From positions 1 through 24,285 of the IMG/VR virus record IMGVR_UViG_3300031884_000136: a stretch of 24,285 nucleotides of DNA. One strand, given 5' to 3'. Every line of letters starts with the position of its first letter. Position 1 is the stretch's first letter. The position numbers and the translations under genes were made by a program. This document shows positions 1,884-23,118 of this stretch, one piece after another. Source of the DNA: a virus. The notes beneath the pieces were generated by a model. It did no database searches. It saw only the letters and a list, made by a program, of their open reading frames with translations, and had not been told where the DNA came from.

Positions 1884-2555
1884 ATGACTATTCCTCGCAA
1901 TCTATCATTTCTAGCAGAAGGTGCTAGTTCAACTGGTGTATTGGGTACTGCTAATGGTGGTACTGGATTAAACACATTAGGAACAGCAGGACAAGCGTTG
2001 GTTGTTAACTCTGGTGCTACTGGGTTGACTTATTCAACTCCTAGTGCTGGTGCTATGGCTTTAATTAGTACACAGACTGCATCTGGATCATCTTCAATAG
2101 CTTTTACTGGATTAAGTGGATATGATAAATATTTTTTAATTTTGCAAAATATATTGCCATCGGCAGCAAATGGAATTTTAGAAATGCAAGTTGGAACAGG
2201 TGCTGGCCCAACATATATAACTTCTGGATATGCAAATCAAATATCGGAAATTACAACCACATTAAATGCTGTAAGAAATGGAGATACAACTGTTTTAGTA
2301 TATGCAAGTTCTCAAGTAGGTTCATCAAATAGTGTTAATGGATTTTCTGGAAAATTAGTTTTTACAAATATGACAAGTGGTGGAGCTACTGATGTTACAG
2401 GTGTATTAGGATGGGCAGACGCATCAACTACTATTGTTAGCGCACCTCTCTCTGGCTTTACTACAAATACAACAGCAAAAACAGCAATTAAAATATTTTT
2501 CAATACTGGAAATATTACATCTGGAAAAGCATCCCTTTACGGAATATCCTCATAA
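1884..2555 (+). CDS. Tail fibre-like structural protein
   Basis: 223 aa. The N-terminus carries the phrase G-T-A-N-G-G-T-G near residue 21, followed by GQALVVN and G-L-T-Y-S-T-P. This Gly/Thr linker is common at the start of phage tail fibre and appendage domains. The rest is a Ser/Thr/Gly-rich, beta-like domain with few charges, consistent with a compact receptor-binding or decoration head. The gene follows the preceding stop immediately. Its end is followed by the same CATAAGGACA-type junction that ends the first gene of the window. The exact ligand and position in the virion cannot be told from sequence. Confidence 0.65.
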   Translation: MTIPRNLSFLAEGASSTGVLGTANGGTGLNTLGTAGQALVVNSGATGLTYSTPSAGAMALISTQTASGSSSIAFTGLSGYDKYFLILQNILPSAANGILEMQVGTGAGPTYITSGYANQISEITTTLNAVRNGDTTVLVYASSQVGSSNSVNGFSGKLVFTNMTSGGATDVTGVLGWADASTTIVSAPLSGFTTNTTAKTAIKIFFNTGNITSGKASLYGISS

Positions 2556-2564
2556 GGACAGAAA

Positions 2565-2855
2565 ATGACACTAAACAACCAAATCATTGCTTATTTAACA
2601 ACCAATAACATTGCTTATTCTGTTGGTGACTACCAAACAGGACAACCTGAAGGCCAAGCAGATCAAATATTGCATTGGGATGCAAAACTAGGAACACAAC
2701 CTACACAAGCTCAATTAGATTCAGCATATTCAACATACCAAGCGCAATTAACTGCTCAAGCACAAGCAAAAGAAGCTGTAAAGGCATCTGCTTTGGCTAA
2801 GTTAACTGCTTTAGGCTTAACTGCTGACGAAATCAAGGCAATAGTAGGCACTTAA
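2565..2855 (+). CDS. Small XkdW-like tail-associated protein
   Basis: 96 aa. The middle has I-L-x-W-D followed by T-Q-P-T-Q-A-Q-L-D-S-A, as in small XkdW-like proteins found after tail fibre genes. The remainder is an Ala/Gln/Lys-rich helix ending in LTALGLTADEIKAIVG, a closing motif common to many phage tail-region small proteins. The start has AAGGA (2554-2558) six bases upstream. A chaperone or fibre accessory role is inferred from position after a fibre gene. No catalytic motif is visible. Confidence 0.6.
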   Translation: MTLNNQIIAYLTTNNIAYSVGDYQTGQPEGQADQILHWDAKLGTQPTQAQLDSAYSTYQAQLTAQAQAKEAVKASALAKLTALGLTADEIKAIVGT

Positions 2856-2868
2856 AAGGAATTAAATA

Positions 2869-3393
2869 ATGTCTGAGCAAGGTTATACCCCGTTAAGAAT
2901 TCCTTTTGCGAACATGAGCAAGGAGTATTTACATTCTTTGTTTGAGTACAAGGATGGCAAACTATTTTGGCGCAATGATAAAGCAAAGGGCAAAATCAAA
3001 GCGGGAGATAGATCGGGGTCTTTAAGCACTAGAGGTTATTGGAGAATAACTGTAGATTACAAAGAATATCCTGAGCATAGGCTTATTTTTATGATGCACT
3101 ACGGTTATTTTCCAAAAGAAATTGACCATATAAACAATGATTGTTTAGATAATAAAATAGAAAATTTAAGAGAAACTACAAGAGTTAACAATTCTTTTAA
3201 TAGAAGGTTGTTTAAAACAAATACAAGTGGTTGCAAAAATGTTTCTTGGATTAAATCAAGAAATAAATGGTTAGTGGAAGTAAAAGCTCATGGAAAACGA
3301 AATCAATGGTGGATAAAAGATTTTGAACTTGCCGAGTTAGTTGCCAAAGAAGCAAGGAATAAATACCATAAGGAATTTGCAAATCATGGCTGA
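2869..3393 (+). CDS. HNH homing-type endonuclease with AP2-like C-terminus, fused to a copy of the next gene's N-terminus
   Basis: 174 aa. Residues 6-17 (YTPLRIPFANMS) are identical to residues 5-16 of the downstream structural protein. From about residue 18 it is a typical free-standing phage HNH protein: EHRL at 69-72, IDHINND at 85-91, then N95, N99 and L100, matching the HNH_3 metal-finger core. It continues with K-T-N-T-S-G-C-K-N-V-S-W (116-127) and a basic AP2-like DNA-binding region ending KEARNKYHKEFA. Such genes make site-specific double-strand breaks and spread by homing. SD AAGGA (2856-2860) lies eight bases from ATG. The end overlaps the next start by eight bases. The duplicated N-terminus suggests the gene entered at the 5' end of the neighbour. 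Confidence 0.88.
   Translation: MSEQGYTPLRIPFANMSKEYLHSLFEYKDGKLFWRNDKAKGKIKAGDRSGSLSTRGYWRITVDYKEYPEHRLIFMMHYGYFPKEIDHINNDCLDNKIENLRETTRVNNSFNRRLFKTNTSGCKNVSWIKSRNKWLVEVKAHGKRNQWWIKDFELAELVAKEARNKYHKEFANHG
2884..2919 (+). repeat. Duplicated 5' coding segment, copy A (in HNH gene)
   Basis: Twelve codons encoding YTPLRIPFANMS. They match copy B (3398-3433) at 12 of 12 residues but 27 of 36 bases by my count. Seven of the twelve codons differ, all synonymously. The longest shared run is ATTCCTTTTGC. An AAGGAATT sequence also precedes both start codons. Confidence 0.85.
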
Positions 3394-5047
3394 TTCATAC
3401 ACACCATTACGAATTCCTTTTGCTAATATGTCATTTAGCCCAGATGTTCCAAGTAATGCTCTTTTGCCTAACGAATACAACTCAGGGTATAACATTGAAG
3501 CAGATGTCAGGGGATTAAAGAAAGTTGACGGAGAACAATCAATTCTGTCAGCAATACCTGGCAACGCAATCTTTATTGAGGGCGGTTTTCGCAACGGTAA
3601 CCTTTGGTCATTCATTGCCGCAAACTCTTCAGGAGCCTGGTATCTGATCAACCAATCAGGTATCAGTACGATTACTCCTGCTTCTCCTTATACAACTTCT
3701 AGTATTTACACGGGCTATAGCTATTCAGGAACTACAGCCGCAACAGCCGCACCTATTACTGGCTCATGGATTGGACAAGTATTTTTTATCAATGATGGGA
3801 TTAATCCTCCCATGTACTTCTATCCCAATGCCACGCAAATCTATATGTACGACAATGCTCCAGACAATTATGTTTGGAACTATGAGTCATCAATAGGTGT
3901 TACTGCCGTACAAGCTTCTTTTGTTAGAGAATATTCTTCTCCTAACATTGGCAACATTTTGATTGCTGGTAACCTGACTAAAACTCAATCCAGCATCACG
4001 ACTTTGCACCCCACTTCTGTTAGATGGAGTCAGTCATTTGCAAATACGGGAGTACCTGCAACATGGGCTCCTACTTTGACAAACACAGCCAATGAGTTAG
4101 AAGTTCCTGTTCGTGGACCTTTGATTGATGGATTTTCATTAGGGGCTAACTTCTTTGTTTGCTCTTATTGGGATACAGTAATCTTTTCTCCTATTGCTTA
4201 TCAAAGCTTTAGTGCTCCTTTGTTTGGTATTTCTTTGTTTAAAAAAGGCAGAGGATTACTTAATCAAAATTGTTGGGACAATGGAGACGATATTGTTTAT
4301 GGCGTTGATGCCAGGGACATTTGGGCTTTTGACGGTACTAATTTTTATTCCTTGGCTAACCAAAAGTTAAAGAATTACTTTTACGCAAATTTAAATTCTA
4401 ACTACATTCAACACGTTCATGTGGTTAATAATACAAAGAAGAATCAAGTAGAGATTTACTATCCTTCTTTAAGTTCTTCAGGGTTCTGCGATCAAATGCT
4501 TTCTTATCGATACGATTTGAAAGTATGGAATGCTCCTAAAACAATCAACAACTCAGCAATGGCTGTTGAAGCTCCTGTCTATAACGGTAGTTCATTTAAC
4601 ACCGCTACTAGATGTACTGTTTATGTTCCCAATACGGGAGCAGGAAGCCGTCAATTGGTCCAGACAGGTATAGGTACTTCTTTCTCTGGAAACGCTATCT
4701 CAAGCCTATTTGAGAGGGATAACTTGGCTTTGCTTGATGATATGGGCAACCCAGTAACTTATCCTCACCATATTTATGTTCACAGGCTTTTCCCAGAAGT
4801 TTCAACCACTACGCCTGGCAACAATCCTTACATTAGCATTACTGTTGGTGGGGCTAATTCGACAGCTCAACCTCCTGTATTTGGGGACACGCAAACTGTA
4901 GCAATCGTTACTGATAACCCTTGGGTGATTACAAATCAAAACGATGTTAGAACTGTGGCTTTAAAGGTGAGTTCGTCAGACGCTATAAATACTTGGAACA
5001 TTACAGCAATGACATTCTTATCGACTGTTGTTGAGGATTCATTCTAA
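3386..5047 (+). CDS. P22 gp10-like packaged-DNA stabilisation / tail nozzle-type structural protein
   Basis: 553 aa when started at ATG 3386, which has AAGGA (3370-3374) upstream; an earlier in-frame ATG at 3341 lies inside the HNH gene and lacks support. The layout matches the beta-propeller family of phage stabilisation/nozzle proteins. It has an N-terminal IP-F-x-P-D-V strand region, a mid-protein VRWSQ-x-P-x-x-W motif, GPLIDG, and GLLNQNCWDNGDDIVYGVDA followed by IWAFDG. Near the end is a VEIYYPS / LSYRYDLKVWNAP block. Such proteins plug the portal-tail channel and keep DNA inside the capsid. It is the best evidence here for a podovirus-like tail. The first 16 residues are duplicated in the upstream HNH gene. 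The family assignment rests on motif pattern only. Confidence 0.7.
   Translation: MADSYTPLRIPFANMSFSPDVPSNALLPNEYNSGYNIEADVRGLKKVDGEQSILSAIPGNAIFIEGGFRNGNLWSFIAANSSGAWYLINQSGISTITPASPYTTSSIYTGYSYSGTTAATAAPITGSWIGQVFFINDGINPPMYFYPNATQIYMYDNAPDNYVWNYESSIGVTAVQASFVREYSSPNIGNILIAGNLTKTQSSITTLHPTSVRWSQSFANTGVPATWAPTLTNTANELEVPVRGPLIDGFSLGANFFVCSYWDTVIFSPIAYQSFSAPLFGISLFKKGRGLLNQNCWDNGDDIVYGVDARDIWAFDGTNFYSLANQKLKNYFYANLNSNYIQHVHVVNNTKKNQVEIYYPSLSSSGFCDQMLSYRYDLKVWNAPKTINNSAMAVEAPVYNGSSFNTATRCTVYVPNTGAGSRQLVQTGIGTSFSGNAISSLFERDNLALLDDMGNPVTYPHHIYVHRLFPEVSTTTPGNNPYISITVGGANSTAQPPVFGDTQTVAIVTDNPWVITNQNDVRTVALKVSSSDAINTWNITAMTFLSTVVEDSF
3398..3433 (+). repeat. Duplicated 5' coding segment, copy B (native gene)
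   Basis: Codons 5-16 of the gp10-like gene, encoding the same YTPLRIPFANMS as copy A at 2884-2919. Third-position changes and one Ser codon switch (AGC versus TCA) account for all nine base differences. This is not a recent direct repeat, because a fresh duplication would be identical at the DNA level. Confidence 0.85.
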
Positions 5048-7165: not shown

Positions 7166-8176
7166 ATGGGTGGACTATCTGGCGGTAAATCATCTGGCAA
7201 TCAAAGCACGAGTGCTCAACTAACGCCACAGCAAACCGAAACACTTAACCTAGAAAATAATTTTCTACAAAGTTATATACCTACTTTGACTGGCACTACT
7301 TCTGGTGCTAATCAGGTTTATCAAAGTCAAGCTCCTAATGTTAACCAGGCGGCCTCCAACGCTGTAAACACAGCCAATACTGCTGGTAACATTCAAGGCA
7401 ACTATGGTGCAGGTGCATTAGGAAGTGGCATCTCTGGACTAGAAAGCTTATTCAGTCCTCAGTACGAACAAAGCCAGGTTGCTGGTGCTTTGGCTCCTGC
7501 AATGTTTGGTGCTCAACAAGCCAACGTAGGTATGAATGCTGGATTTGCTGGTGCAGGTGAGCAAGGCTCTGCTAGAGAAGCATTGGCTAATCAGGCCACA
7601 CAAGCCCTTAATACACAGATGTTGGGCAACATTGCCGCTACTACTGAAGCAGGTATTTCAAACGCAAGAGCGAACGCTGGTCAAGCCCTAGGGACTCTTG
7701 GAACGACCAATTTGAATGCGGCTCCAACTACCATTGGTTCGACTATTGGATACTCAGCCGCACCTTTAAGTAACTATGGACAATATGCAAGCACTATTTA
7801 TGGTGCACCTTCTCAGACTCCTAATTATTCTGGCACTCAAGGGTCTACTTCTAGCGGCACTTCTAAGGGTGTGGGCAAAAGCGATATTAGACTTAAAAGG
7901 TTTGTTCATGCGCTTAATTATGGGCTGAGTGAAGTTCAAAAACTAAAGCCTGTTTCATGGCTTTGGAAAGATTCACAAGCATATGGACCTCAAGCAGAAA
8001 TAGGTTTTGTTGCTCAAGATGTTCAACAAGTTATCCCTGAAGTAATTCACGAGATTGAAGGTATTTTGCATATTGACTATGCAAAGCTGACTGCTGTCTT
8101 AACCAACGCAATCATTCAACAACAAGCTCAGATCGATGCTTTATCTAAGAAATTAGATGAAAGAGAGGTTGTATGA
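7166..8176 (+). CDS. Virion protein with C-terminal S74 intramolecular chaperone/autocleavage domain
   Basis: 336 aa. Residues 1-235 are Ala/Gln/Asn/Gly-rich and look helical, with the feel of internal virion or DNA-ejection proteins: SPQYEQSQVAGALAPAMFGA, then GEQGSAREALANQA. At residue 239 a Peptidase_S74 domain begins: S-D-I-R-L-K with S239 and K244 at the six-residue Ser-Lys spacing of the endosialidase self-cleaving dyad. Then come PVSWLWK, GFVAQDV, PEVI, DYAKLTAVL, and a terminal coiled coil with IIQQQAQIDALSKKL. Self-cleavage before S239 would release about 98 residues. S74 domains usually trimerise and fold tail spikes, so its place on this N-terminal region is unusual. Domain identification is firm; the role of the N-terminus is inferred. 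Confidence 0.8.
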   Translation: MGGLSGGKSSGNQSTSAQLTPQQTETLNLENNFLQSYIPTLTGTTSGANQVYQSQAPNVNQAASNAVNTANTAGNIQGNYGAGALGSGISGLESLFSPQYEQSQVAGALAPAMFGAQQANVGMNAGFAGAGEQGSAREALANQATQALNTQMLGNIAATTEAGISNARANAGQALGTLGTTNLNAAPTTIGSTIGYSAAPLSNYGQYASTIYGAPSQTPNYSGTQGSTSSGTSKGVGKSDIRLKRFVHALNYGLSEVQKLKPVSWLWKDSQAYGPQAEIGFVAQDVQQVIPEVIHEIEGILHIDYAKLTAVLTNAIIQQQAQIDALSKKLDEREVV

Positions 8177-13123: not shown

Positions 13124-13547
13124 AATAGAAGTCCGAATAAGGGCTTTTGTGGTCATCATGGTGACCTTGATTTTGTTCTTTATTGTGGTTACGCTGATCT
13201 ACAGCATTATGTTTGTCACACAGCCAATTAAACAAATGGCTCCGATAGACCAGGCTTTCTCCAAGATGTTGAACGACATCGTATTGCTCATTGTGGGCGG
13301 TATAGGCGGTATTTTGACCAAGGGAGCTACAACTGAGGCTAGAGCCATGTTGGATGCTGCAAAAGCCAATACAGCGGCTTATGTGGCTCCTCCGCCTCCT
13401 CCTCCAGCTCCTGTGATGATGTTTACCCCTCCCCCAACACCCTCCCCCAATACGGGGTACACCCCTCCTCCTCCTCCACAGACTCCTCCTACGCTAGAAG
13501 CTGACCATGAAAGGGAGAGAATGGCACAAGCAAGGGCAAGCGTATGA
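13065..13547 (+). CDS. Two-span membrane protein with proline-rich tail, holin candidate
   Basis: 160 aa beginning at TTG 13065, chosen because GGAG (13054-13057) is seven bases upstream and no ATG is available early in the frame. Two hydrophobic segments are visible: FVVIMVTLILFFIVVTLIYS and IVLLIVGGIGGILTKG. They are followed by a Pro-rich tail with runs of six and five prolines and a charged end (EADHERERMAQARA). Two-span phage proteins beside spanins and endolysin are often holins. The poly-Pro tail is unusual for a holin and may contact other lysis proteins. The stop overlaps the next start. Confidence 0.65.
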   Translation: MKELLLAFLNSNKERLTADEIEVRIRAFVVIMVTLILFFIVVTLIYSIMFVTQPIKQMAPIDQAFSKMLNDIVLLIVGGIGGILTKGATTEARAMLDAAKANTAAYVAPPPPPPAPVMMFTPPPTPSPNTGYTPPPPPQTPPTLEADHERERMAQARASV

Positions 13548-14122
13548 GTTGGTTGGCCTGGTTCTTTGATGACCTTTTTTACTGGATTGCACTTATTGCA
13601 CTTGTGGCAGGAAGTGTTGCTTATTTGCTAAGTTACCTAATAGGGATTTTCCCTATGTTAAAGCCCCATGCCCTCTTGATGAAGGTTGTGGGATTGGCGT
13701 TAGTTATCACTGGAGGTTTTTATGTCTCAGATCATCATGGTTATGAAAGACGTGTTGCTGAAGATAAAGCAGAAATTGAACGACTTAATACAGAAGCTCG
13801 GGCAAAAGAAGTAGAGCTTAGTCAAAAGCTATCAGTAGCAAACAATCAATTGAAGAAAGCTAAGAATGAAATTAAAGTTAAACAGGCTGACATTGATGCT
13901 AGGGTTGACTCTGGCGAGTTGCGCCTCCCCTCCTCCTGTGGTGTACAAGCCAGTACAAGTGCCTCCAATGGAGATCAAGCCAATGGAGCCGAATCTGACA
14001 GACAGGCTATTAAAGATATTGTCGCAATCGCCTCAGACGGAGACAAAGCAATCGTCAAGCTCAACGCCTGTATTGCCCAGTACAACCAAGTGATGCAGAC
14101 TGTCAATGAAGGAGTTAAGTAA
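13544..14122 (+). CDS. Rz-like inner-membrane spanin (i-spanin)
   Basis: 192 aa. Two hydrophobic stretches occur near the N-terminus (IALIALVAGSVAYLLSYLIG and VVGLALVITGGFYVS). A long charged coiled coil follows from about residue 65 (RRVAEDKAEIERLNTEARAK), then LRLPSSCG and a helical end. The coiled coil, the C-terminal Cys and the nested lipoprotein gene in another frame identify an Rz-type spanin, which joins with the Rz1 lipoprotein to fuse inner and outer membranes. Classical Rz has one N-terminal span; two spans here raise a topology question. It has an ATGA overlap with the upstream gene. The stop overlaps a 25-aa ORF. Confidence 0.8.
   Translation: MSWLAWFFDDLFYWIALIALVAGSVAYLLSYLIGIFPMLKPHALLMKVVGLALVITGGFYVSDHHGYERRVAEDKAEIERLNTEARAKEVELSQKLSVANNQLKKAKNEIKVKQADIDARVDSGELRLPSSCGVQASTSASNGDQANGAESDRQAIKDIVAIASDGDKAIVKLNACIAQYNQVMQTVNEGVK
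13866..14093 (+). CDS. Rz1-like outer-membrane spanin lipoprotein, nested in the i-spanin gene
   Basis: 75 aa in the +1 frame and wholly inside the Rz-like gene. It begins MKLKLNRLTLMLGLTLASC: a basic start, a hydrophobic core and an L-A-S-C lipobox with Cys19 as the lipidated residue. The mature protein is Pro/Ser/Thr-rich (SPPPVVYKPVQVPP), exactly the character of Rz1 proteins. The GAAGAAAG sequence at 13852-13859 can serve as ribosome site. The embedded arrangement is the lambda type. It acts with the i-spanin to disrupt the outer membrane at the last lysis step. Confidence 0.82.
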   Translation: MKLKLNRLTLMLGLTLASCASPPPVVYKPVQVPPMEIKPMEPNLTDRLLKILSQSPQTETKQSSSSTPVLPSTTK

Positions 14123-14199
14123 TGGATAGATTCTTAGTTGGCATTTGTATCGCTGTAAGTTTTCTGATGCTTTATTTGTTATTGAGTGGCAACATATGA
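14122..14199 (+). CDS. 25-aa single-span membrane peptide
   Basis: A 25-codon gene between spanin and endolysin: M-D-R-F, then a hydrophobic span (VGICIAVSFLMLYLLLSG), ending N-I. AAGGAG (14109-14114) lies seven bases before ATG, an excellent ribosome site. The start shares a base with the spanin stop (TAATG) and the end overlaps the endolysin start (ATGA). Such exact packing strongly suggests a translated gene. It could be a pinholin, an antiholin or a translational coupler for the endolysin. No family was recognised. Confidence 0.6.
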   Translation: MDRFLVGICIAVSFLMLYLLLSGNI

Positions 14200-14795
14200 T
14201 TACAGCAGAACAACTCCATGCCTTAAACATAGGTCCTCAATGGGTAGAGCCACTAAATGCAACCATCCAAAAGTTCAGCATTTTTACCCTTAAAGAACAA
14301 GCCGCCTTTATCGGACAGCTTTCGCACGAGTGCAACCATTTCACAGTCCTTCAAGAGAACCTTAATTACAGAGCTGAAACCCTACAAGCCCTGTTCCATA
14401 CTCACTTTAAACCAGAAGAATATGCCCTTTTTGCCCATCAACCTGAGAAGATTGCAAATAGAGTCTATGCAAACCGATGCGGTAACAGAAATGAAGCAAG
14501 TGGGGACGGTTTTCGCTACAGGGGAAGAGGTTGTATCCAGCTAACCTTTCACGATAATTATTGGCATTGTGGACAAGCCCTAGGACAAGACTTTGTTGCC
14601 AATCCTGACCTAGTTTCTACGCCCTTATGGGCTGTTATGAGTAGTGGTTGGTTTTGGGCTACGCATGGGTGTAATCAATTGGCCCAGGCTGAAAATGAAG
14701 AAGGTTTGTGTAAAAGGGTTAACGGGGGGCTAAATGGTTTAAGTAGCCGAATAGAGTTAACTAAGAAAGCTTATCAAGTATTGTCAGGTGGGTAG
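14196..14795 (+). CDS. Endolysin, glycoside hydrolase family 19 (chitinase-like lysozyme)
   Basis: 199 aa from ATG 14196, at an ATGA overlap with the 25-aa peptide. The GH19 lysozyme pattern is clear: AAFIGQLSHECNHF with likely catalytic Glu45, ENLNYRAETL with Glu54, IANRVYANRCGNRNEASGDG, then FRYRGRGCIQLTF, SSGWFWATHGCNQLA and CKRVNGGLNG. It cuts the peptidoglycan sugar backbone. Length is normal for a single-domain enzyme, and no signal peptide is seen, so it needs a holin for access. It is the last rightward gene of the late block and is followed by a hairpin. Confidence 0.9.
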   Translation: MITAEQLHALNIGPQWVEPLNATIQKFSIFTLKEQAAFIGQLSHECNHFTVLQENLNYRAETLQALFHTHFKPEEYALFAHQPEKIANRVYANRCGNRNEASGDGFRYRGRGCIQLTFHDNYWHCGQALGQDFVANPDLVSTPLWAVMSSGWFWATHGCNQLAQAENEEGLCKRVNGGLNGLSSRIELTKKAYQVLSGG

Positions 14796-22470: not shown

Positions 22471-23118
22471 TTAAGCCACCTTTAAGATGTTAATAACCTT
22501 TTGCATTTTTTTTCCATGTGCTGGATATGCAATAACCTTTATCTTCTTGTCATAGCACGCACGGCAGCCGTCACATGTTCCTAGTGATTGATATGCTTTG
22601 CACAATGTCATATCTTTTTTAACGTCATCTGGCGTAGAAATAATAACGGAACCATGTAAACCTTTTACATATTCGCCGTTGACGGAATCACTAGAAAAAC
22701 GAACAGAAACATTTTTTAAACTTTGCATTTCTTGAAGTACAAGAGCAAATTTAGGGAATTTATGCATTCTGGTGGGCAACCAATGCTTCACCCAAGGTGT
22801 GCGTTTCATTATTTCTAGCATTTTCTCGGCTAATCCTAAGGAATACATATCTCCAGAATCAAACCATCTAAAATAACGATCATTTTCTAATGCTTGGACC
22901 ATGTCATCGACCCAATTAACCCTTTGCCAGTCTAATTTATTGTGATTTCTAGGGGCTTTGACATTTGGAAAACGATAATTTCCCGTAGTGGCATAGCATC
23001 CTTTGCATGCATCAACTAACACGCCAGGGCTTTCTAGTGAGCCAGGACATGTATCCAATGCATTAAGGGACCATGAGCGAATCCCGTCAAGCTTTGAAGT
23101 AACAGATAATTTAACCAT
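22471..23118 (-). CDS. GP88-like phage protein with Cys clusters
   Basis: 215 aa. It matches the pattern of the phage GP88 family: KLDGIRSWSLNALDTCPGS, DACKGCYATTGNYRFP, N-K-L-D-W-x-R-V-N-W-V, YFRWFDSGDMYSLGLAEKML, WLPTRMHK and VSVRFSSDS. Cys24, Cys38 and Cys41 form one group, and C-x8-C-x2-C-x2-C near the C-terminus forms another. The layout (Cys set, CYA, then R-W-F-D-S-G-D and W-L-P-T-R strands) recalls the Gp37/Gp68 radical-SAM-like phage proteins, so an iron-sulfur cluster is possible. The reaction is unknown. AGGGG upstream of ATG gives a good ribosome site. Confidence 0.72.
   Translation of the reverse strand: MVKLSVTSKLDGIRSWSLNALDTCPGSLESPGVLVDACKGCYATTGNYRFPNVKAPRNHNKLDWQRVNWVDDMVQALENDRYFRWFDSGDMYSLGLAEKMLEIMKRTPWVKHWLPTRMHKFPKFALVLQEMQSLKNVSVRFSSDSVNGEYVKGLHGSVIISTPDDVKKDMTLCKAYQSLGTCDGCRACYDKKIKVIAYPAHGKKMQKVINILKVA

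Follow-up and report, generated by a model that had tools for sequence, protein, structure and literature searches.

A putative homing-endonuclease cassette that supplies new 5′ ends to the phage genes it invades

An HNH endonuclease gene and the virion structural gene that follows it begin with the same twelve residues (YTPLRIPFANMS) in the window, the whole 24,285-nucleotide stretch of viral DNA analysed here (IMG/VR record IMGVR_UViG_3300031884_000136). The arrangement is probably the work of a mobile cassette, built around a homing endonuclease, which on entering a gene substitutes a 5′ end of its own for the existing one. Such a cassette would consist of an HNH_3 nuclease gene, the last codons of which hold a ribosome-binding site and the ATG of the next gene, followed by about 14–21 recoded codons of the target. 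Its insertion would leave the leader, start codon, and first few codons of the target upstream and in frame with the nuclease; the old expression signals would now make the nuclease, and the recoded 5′ end would restore the target protein. We infer that the nuclease cuts uninterrupted alleles within their first ∼20 codons, that repair from a cassette-bearing phage copies the cassette in, and that the recoded copy escapes cutting. Comparison between loci shows the architecture, its recurrence at unrelated genes, and target-specific nuclease lineages; at loci other than the window it also shows that the start carried by the nuclease is of native origin and that recoding is restricted to the replacement 5′ end.

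The locus in the window

The features of the locus are collected in Table 1. The start of the gp10-like gene overlaps the stop of the HNH gene by 8 nucleotides, and its product belongs to phrog_3287 (head and packaging, E = 9.2e-31). The twelve shared residues are encoded at 2884–2919 in the nuclease gene (copy A) and at 3398–3433 in the virion gene (copy B), ending at codon 17 of the former and codon 16 of the latter. A preliminary description had reported that the two copies encode the same residues with different codons, and direct reading confirms this: 12 of 12 residues and 27 of 36 nucleotides are identical, and 7 of the 12 codons differ, every one silently.

Table 1. Features of the nuclease locus and its surroundings (window positions).
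Feature	Position	Strand	Details
Upstream neighbour, XkdW-like small protein (context only)	2565–2855	+	Pfam XkdW, 25.1 bits, cut-off 24.6
AAGGA ribosome-binding-like site in the native 5′ leader, now before the HNH ORF	2856–2860	+	Direct reading; just 5′ of the ATG at 2869
HNH ORF	2869–3393	+	174 aa; starts MSEQG-YTPLRIPFANMS-KEYLHSLFEY
Copy A, first 17 codons (MSEQGYTPLRIPFANMS), fused in frame to HNH	2869–2919	+	Taken as the native virion-gene 5′ end
HNH_3 homing-endonuclease body with C-terminal AP2-like region	2920–3393	+	Stop TGA at 3391–3393
3′ end of the HNH gene, doubling as the translation start of the next gene	3370–3388	+	Direct reading
Target gene, gp10-like virion structural protein	3386–5047	+	553 aa; starts MADS-YTPLRIPFANMS-FSPDVPSN
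Copy B, virion-gene codons 1–16 in recoded form (MADSYTPLRIPFANMS)	3386–3433	+	27/36 nt; 7 codons silently different in the shared 12

Elsewhere in the window, a small ORF (13866–14093) is embedded in another frame within a membrane-anchored ORF (13544–14122), and the two look like an Rz/Rz1 spanin pair; a GH19 endolysin (14145–14795) comes after them. A virion protein at 7166–8176 carries a C-terminal Peptidase_S74 intramolecular chaperone domain, and a GP88 family protein (Pfam PF17338, E = 2.6e-31) is encoded on the minus strand at 22471–23118.

Several lines of comparison identify the nuclease. It matches HNH_3 in Pfam (E = 3.3e-13; 49.5 bits, above the curated cut-off of 24.8) and phrog_99 (E = 5.8e-55), with a match to AP2 (E = 0.0013) that, at 19.4 bits, lies below the cut-off of 33.3. 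A profile match links it to I-HmuI (1U3E, E = 3.1e-7). The same entry ranked top in a structural search, but the match was weak (E = 0.03, low TM-score), so that membership in an I-HmuI-like family rests on sequence. The conserved DH...N active-site residues (D86, H87, N95, and N99) are invariant in 25 aligned relatives, and the protein is a predicted HNH_3 homing endonuclease of the I-HmuI-like type. An AlphaFold2 model of the nuclease has a mean pLDDT of 87; residues 1–10 are modelled with low confidence (pLDDT 52) and the first long helix begins only at residue 18; on this evidence the shared leader resembles an addition to the nuclease. I-HmuI itself is encoded in a group I intron, whereas an Rfam scan of positions 2400–3800 gave no intron match, and downstream the target is encoded by a complete, separate ORF. 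The window nuclease thus appears free of intron or intein, and a group I intron carrying it was rejected on the Rfam result. In family it belongs with the I-HmuI-like HNH_3 homing endonucleases (PDB 1U3E; phrog_99; IPA-HNH, PMC10448857), possibly in their HNH-AP2 subgroup; phage records with a nuclease of this family number ∼3000.

The last codons of the nuclease gene appear to serve two proteins. Its end, K-E-F-A-N-H-G-stop, reads AAGGAATTTGCAAATCATGGCTGA: AAGGA (3370–3374) lies inside the K-E-F codons, and the ATG-GCT start of the virion gene follows, with its ATG (3386–3388) in another frame of the H-G-stop codons. From this reading, the 3′ end of the nuclease gene probably drives translation of the target. 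The start of the next gene is overlapped in this way at 47 of 163 HNH loci, and 34 of the 47 have a motif resembling a ribosome site just upstream. Where this overlap occurs, Met-Ala is a frequent beginning of the rescued protein, regardless of which residue is second in the native one (for example, MPKNK becomes MAKNK).

The shared stretch is not a product of chance. In a screen of 163 non-redundant HNH loci, made up of relatives of the nuclease, each N-terminus was aligned with the start of the next ORF (BLOSUM62, local). The pair from the window scored 67, compared with a maximum of 34 over 1622 mismatched pairs, which excludes chance as the source of the shared residues. Furthermore, L001 and L005, two more IMG/VR contigs, carry the locus with 100% identical protein sequence, bringing the metagenome contigs to three, and the same architecture is seen in GenBank phage genomes, so that an assembly artefact is unlikely. 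Nothing was found in favour of chance, convergence, or artefact, and the probability that any of them made the shared stretch is negligible. The screen also revealed duplications before several unrelated target genes. The lysin loci of Jerseyvirus scored only 33–34 in it, level with the mismatched-pair maximum, and are counted because of the direct comparison of two phages described below. L114 was dropped as a duplication, its score of 31 falling below that maximum.

Among 73 loci related to the gp10-like gene in IMG/VR, an HNH gene lies directly upstream only in the window type and in L037 and L038; the others have a single start. The proposal that a homing cassette had entered the structural gene was thereby borne out in one respect: in HNH-less relatives the gene starts once, and none shows both starts. 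The alternative that the leader is common to unrelated HNH proteins also found no support, as other HNH proteins bear the first codons of their own neighbours rather than the leader of the window. No close HNH-less relative of the window was found in IMG/VR, where the nearest is L006 (78% protein identity), or in the phage collection, where the best match is 55%. Copy A resembles the start of L006 (MSDQGYTPLRVPFANMS), with MSEQGY in the former and MSDQGY in the latter. Synonymous codons, tried as a means of deciding polarity in the window, gave 51 matches of 126 for either copy, and this approach was dropped. Based on the residues and on the other loci, copy A is probably native and copy B imported.

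The same event at other genes

The event is seen, with and without the nuclease, at four genes: the gp10-like gene (L037/L033), the lysin gene of Jerseyvirus (SB3/SF5), a tail-type gene (L152/L270 and L316/L330), and a DUF5856 gene (L147/L352). At each of them the native 5′ leader and first 3–18 codons are fused to the nuclease, followed by a recoded 5′ end of 14–21 codons and then the native gene. The native target start is found on the nuclease in L037, SB3, L152, L316, and L147; the target's own start is not left intact. At all five pairs the insertion reading of the preliminary description holds as regards a native leader and first codons now on the HNH gene and a recoded 5′ end downstream; copy B may have come from a related phage, as that description proposed, or selection may have made it different.

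For the gp10-like gene, L037 and L033 decide the matter. Over more than 100 nt leading to the start codon the two do not differ, and the first HNH codons of L037 (ATGAGCGAT) are the native start MSD, a copy A of only 3 codons. From the second start, 12 of 15 synonymous codons are changed within the first 18 codons of the virion gene; copy B diverges from L033 over 51 nt, after which nucleotide identity is ∼95% to the end of the gene. The L037 nuclease is the nearest relative of the window nuclease (54% identical), fused after codon 3 compared with codon 17 in the window, and a search for its own close relatives returned only the two known contigs.

In Salmonella Jerseyvirus, SB3, which has the nuclease, and SF5, which has none, are identical at 298 of 300 nt across the upstream region and the lysin gene as far as codon 11. 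MSNRNISDNGL, the start of the SF5 lysin, opens the SB3 nuclease, and the SB3 lysin restarts with a recoded tract in which 6 of 13 synonymous codons differ; the remainder is identical to SF5, with 0 of 139 synonymous differences. In uncultivated phages, the tail-type gene has received four insertions (L152, L153, L316, and L326). Copy A of L316 matches native L330 at 54 of 54 nt and its copy B at best 41 of 54 to any native start compared; for L152 the figures are 41 of 42 and at best 32 of 42. Copies A of L326 and L153 match native starts less closely (48/54 and 37/42). At the DUF5856 gene, comparison of L147 with L352 and others shows that the nuclease has the native leader and start, and that the gene itself opens with ∼60 nt of recoded sequence. 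Duplication with silent differences is also seen at a DUF5131 gene (L218) and a small unknown gene (L184), which are candidate cases.

Two observations extend the range of outcomes at these sites. In Salmonella phage S106 (L102, 1387–2375), a second, distinct nuclease begins with MSNRNISDNGL of the native lysin; the lysin behind it has another recoded start (MRSMSDNGLKF), and two cassettes are thus known from one site. A relative of the L147 nuclease (L169, 361–1100) precedes the same DUF5856 gene, the start of which is not duplicated; duplication is thus one outcome among several.

The four tail-gene nucleases are 83–90% identical in DNA, yet only 7–16 positions agree in the 40 bases that precede their starts. 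Copies this similar in four unrelated upstream contexts indicate that the nuclease moves. In a tree of nuclease bodies, those that precede the same target gene are nearest relatives. These patterns fit target-specific nucleases that move between phages together with a recoded copy B, copy A being the remnant of the recipient.

Alleles that resemble copy B are also found without a nuclease. Nuclease-free L044 (3341–3400) has the native leader joined to copy-B-like sequence, identical to copy B of L037 over codons 9–18. In phage PVP-SE2 (L101, 1386–1446), also nuclease-free, the native start is joined to copy B, with 54 of 57 nt matching that of SB3. PVP-SE2 may represent either a cured locus or a donor; more generally, it and L044 could be cured or immune alleles, donors of copy B, or chance alleles. 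Among public records of the Jerseyvirus lysin, 138 match the native allele, 53 the copy-B-like sequence, and 36 the nuclease junction; the 53 Jerseyvirus-type records match the PVP-SE2 allele, and some of them carry a nuclease. Sensitive, carrier, and putatively immune alleles coexist in public phage genomes, so that both resistance to a drive over the long term and loss of the drive are open to direct test in ordinary laboratory phages.

Origin and role of the recoded start

Recoding is concentrated at the new 5′ end. In four clean pairs, the tracts have 37 synonymous differences at 58 sites and the gene bodies 125 at 799 (Fisher p = 5e-15), and serine switches between the AGY and TCN classes at 4 of 9 and 0 of 50 codons, respectively (p = 3e-4). 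Because the limits of the tracts had been fixed by eye ahead of the count, the p-values express a contrast and are not an unbiased test. The tracts also hold some amino-acid changes, such as MPKNK to MAKNK in L152. The first perfect 15-nt run past the tract starts at nt 40–64 of copy B. On the left, fusion points fall after 3, 10, 11, 14, 17, or 18 codons, a spread that no single fixed site at the left end would give. This suggests that only the right side of the insertion is set by homology.

Different models may account for the recoding. The same insertion could have taken place with recoding that has no function, copy B being the 5′ end of a divergent donor that was carried in by co-conversion and records ancestry only. 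We consider this possible, if rather doubtful. The amino-acid changes in the tracts are in keeping with it, as are the HNH-less possible donors PVP-SE2 and L044, with their close matches to the copies B of SB3 and L037. However, no native allele among the relatives compared is close to copy B of the tail gene (32/42 at best), the tract always covers just the first 14–21 codons, and the serine class switches are concentrated within it. Imported sequence could give passive resistance even on this account; donor descent and protection from the nuclease are compatible as causes of the recoding, and either or both may have acted. Alternatively, the silent changes may hinder recombination between the direct copies, with deletion of the nuclease, rather than cleavage. 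Copies A and B are direct repeats, and PVP-SE2 and L044, in which native leader or start meets copy-B-like sequence, look like the products of such recombination. Against this, repeats of 9–33 nt need little recoding, and the recoded codons exceed the duplicated ones at three loci (18 compared with 3 in L037, ∼16 compared with 11 in SB3, and ∼20 compared with 10 in L147), so recoding is not only a guard against repeat recombination. As the main cause, we regard it as unlikely.

Two further accounts carry far less weight. Had the nuclease duplicated its own target site on insertion, with silent drift of copy B in place, both copies would be explained without a donor; yet the recoded tract is longer than copy A, and drift in place is ruled out for SB3 and SF5, where the tract differs at 6 of 13 synonymous codons and the rest of the lysin at 0 of 139. 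This makes local duplication very improbable. The shared N-terminus might instead serve the nuclease as a tag, by which it could for instance be packaged into the virion, and the target in the window is indeed a virion protein. The layout also occurs with lysin, DUF5131, and DUF5856 genes, L037 shares MSD only, and the leader is modelled with low confidence (pLDDT 52 for residues 1–10), all of which speak against a tag; we hold it to be most unlikely.

The cassette reading preferred here can be extended to a widespread class of HNH_3 phage nucleases, natural and self-contained, that would work by ‘cut, copy and rescue’. Each lineage would be specific for the first ∼20 codons of one conserved gene, the recoded 5′ end would have been selected to escape its own nuclease, and the nuclease 3′ end would have evolved into a ribosome site and start. 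Loss of the nuclease through recombination of the copies would then leave immune alleles that spread in phages. We put this extension forward tentatively, as quite possible.

Related systems

A selfish nuclease inside an essential coding sequence must preserve the function of that gene and spare its own carrier. For introns and inteins the answer is splicing; that of the phage element appears to be a short recoded start equipped with its own translation signals. A close likeness is to mobile ORFs (mORFs) of fungal mitochondria, such as those in Allomyces atp6 and in Glomus atp6, atp9, cox2, and nad3, which bring in foreign C-terminal gene ends (PMC3630166). In both, a homing-nuclease ORF sits in a gene, a foreign and largely synonymously different end restores the protein, and the native end is displaced. 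The resemblance to duplications of the Allomyces atp6 type, which the preliminary description had pointed out, stands as a mirror image at the 5′ end with another nuclease family: the fungal elements replace the 3′ end and encode LAGLIDADG or GIY-YIG nucleases, compared with the 5′ end and HNH_3 here (PMC3630166). A displaced and duplicated native end is present at other phage loci (54/54 nt in L316/L330, and SB3/SF5) and is deduced from residues in the window; a synonymously divergent replacement end with the rest of the gene native is likewise present (37/58 compared with 125/799). Unlike the mORFs, the phage nuclease has the displaced native start joined to it, and its gene provides the site where translation of the rescued protein would begin.

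Free-standing phage nucleases are known from intronless homing, for example the seg genes of T4 (PMC2988022) and HNH genes of Skunavirus (PMC12724721), in which the recipient is assumed to become resistant as donor sequence replaces the cut site. Like the present nuclease, they lie outside introns and inteins and often adjoin an essential phage gene. They stand apart from their neighbours or overlap the ends of these without taking over a start, whereas here the coding sequence was entered and its start rebuilt with a short recoded tract. An out-of-frame HNH insertion in phage methylase genes (ShiLan, PMC11855218) also places an HNH gene in a phage coding sequence with overlapping reading frames; the host gene there is readable through the insert, and the abstract mentions no duplicated or recoded gene end. 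In principle, a cutter in an essential gene combined with rescue is also the design of HomeR (PMC7968924), an engineered CRISPR drive in Drosophila with no relation by descent, and the phage element looks like a natural counterpart of such home-and-rescue drives. A search of the open-access literature, which was not exhaustive, turned up intronless homing and the fungal precedent at the 3′ end, and no report of 5′-end replacement in phages.

The cassette would also explain some puzzling phage annotations, namely HNH genes with fused N-termini and overlapping starts of HNH and next genes.

Other HNH genes were encountered in the course of these comparisons. The Felixounavirus exonuclease was rejected as a case: the nuclease lies at the 3′ end and there is no N-terminal duplication. 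In Escherichia phage fjerdesal (L098, 2965–3977), tandem HNH and GIY-YIG genes occur, the first of which overlaps the 3′ end of a 5′-3′ exonuclease gene. In the Skatevirus phages INT55 (L094, 2977–3600) and VSt472 (L095, 548–1150), the gene for the terminase large subunit (TerL) begins within the end of the HNH gene, overlapping its stop in the same CATGGCTAG arrangement, with no duplication of the TerL start. Compared with nuclease-free phages, the 5′ end of TerL is different, but over a long polymorphic stretch, so that no clean recoded tract can be claimed, and it was rejected as a recoded case. In Enterobacter phage ENT1 (L093, 2743–3480), a single ORF joins an N-terminal segment that is LexA-like by eye (MMLTQRQRDVFDFIVNYIAENGVSPTVAEIA...) to an HNH body, and is possibly another fusion to a displaced gene start.
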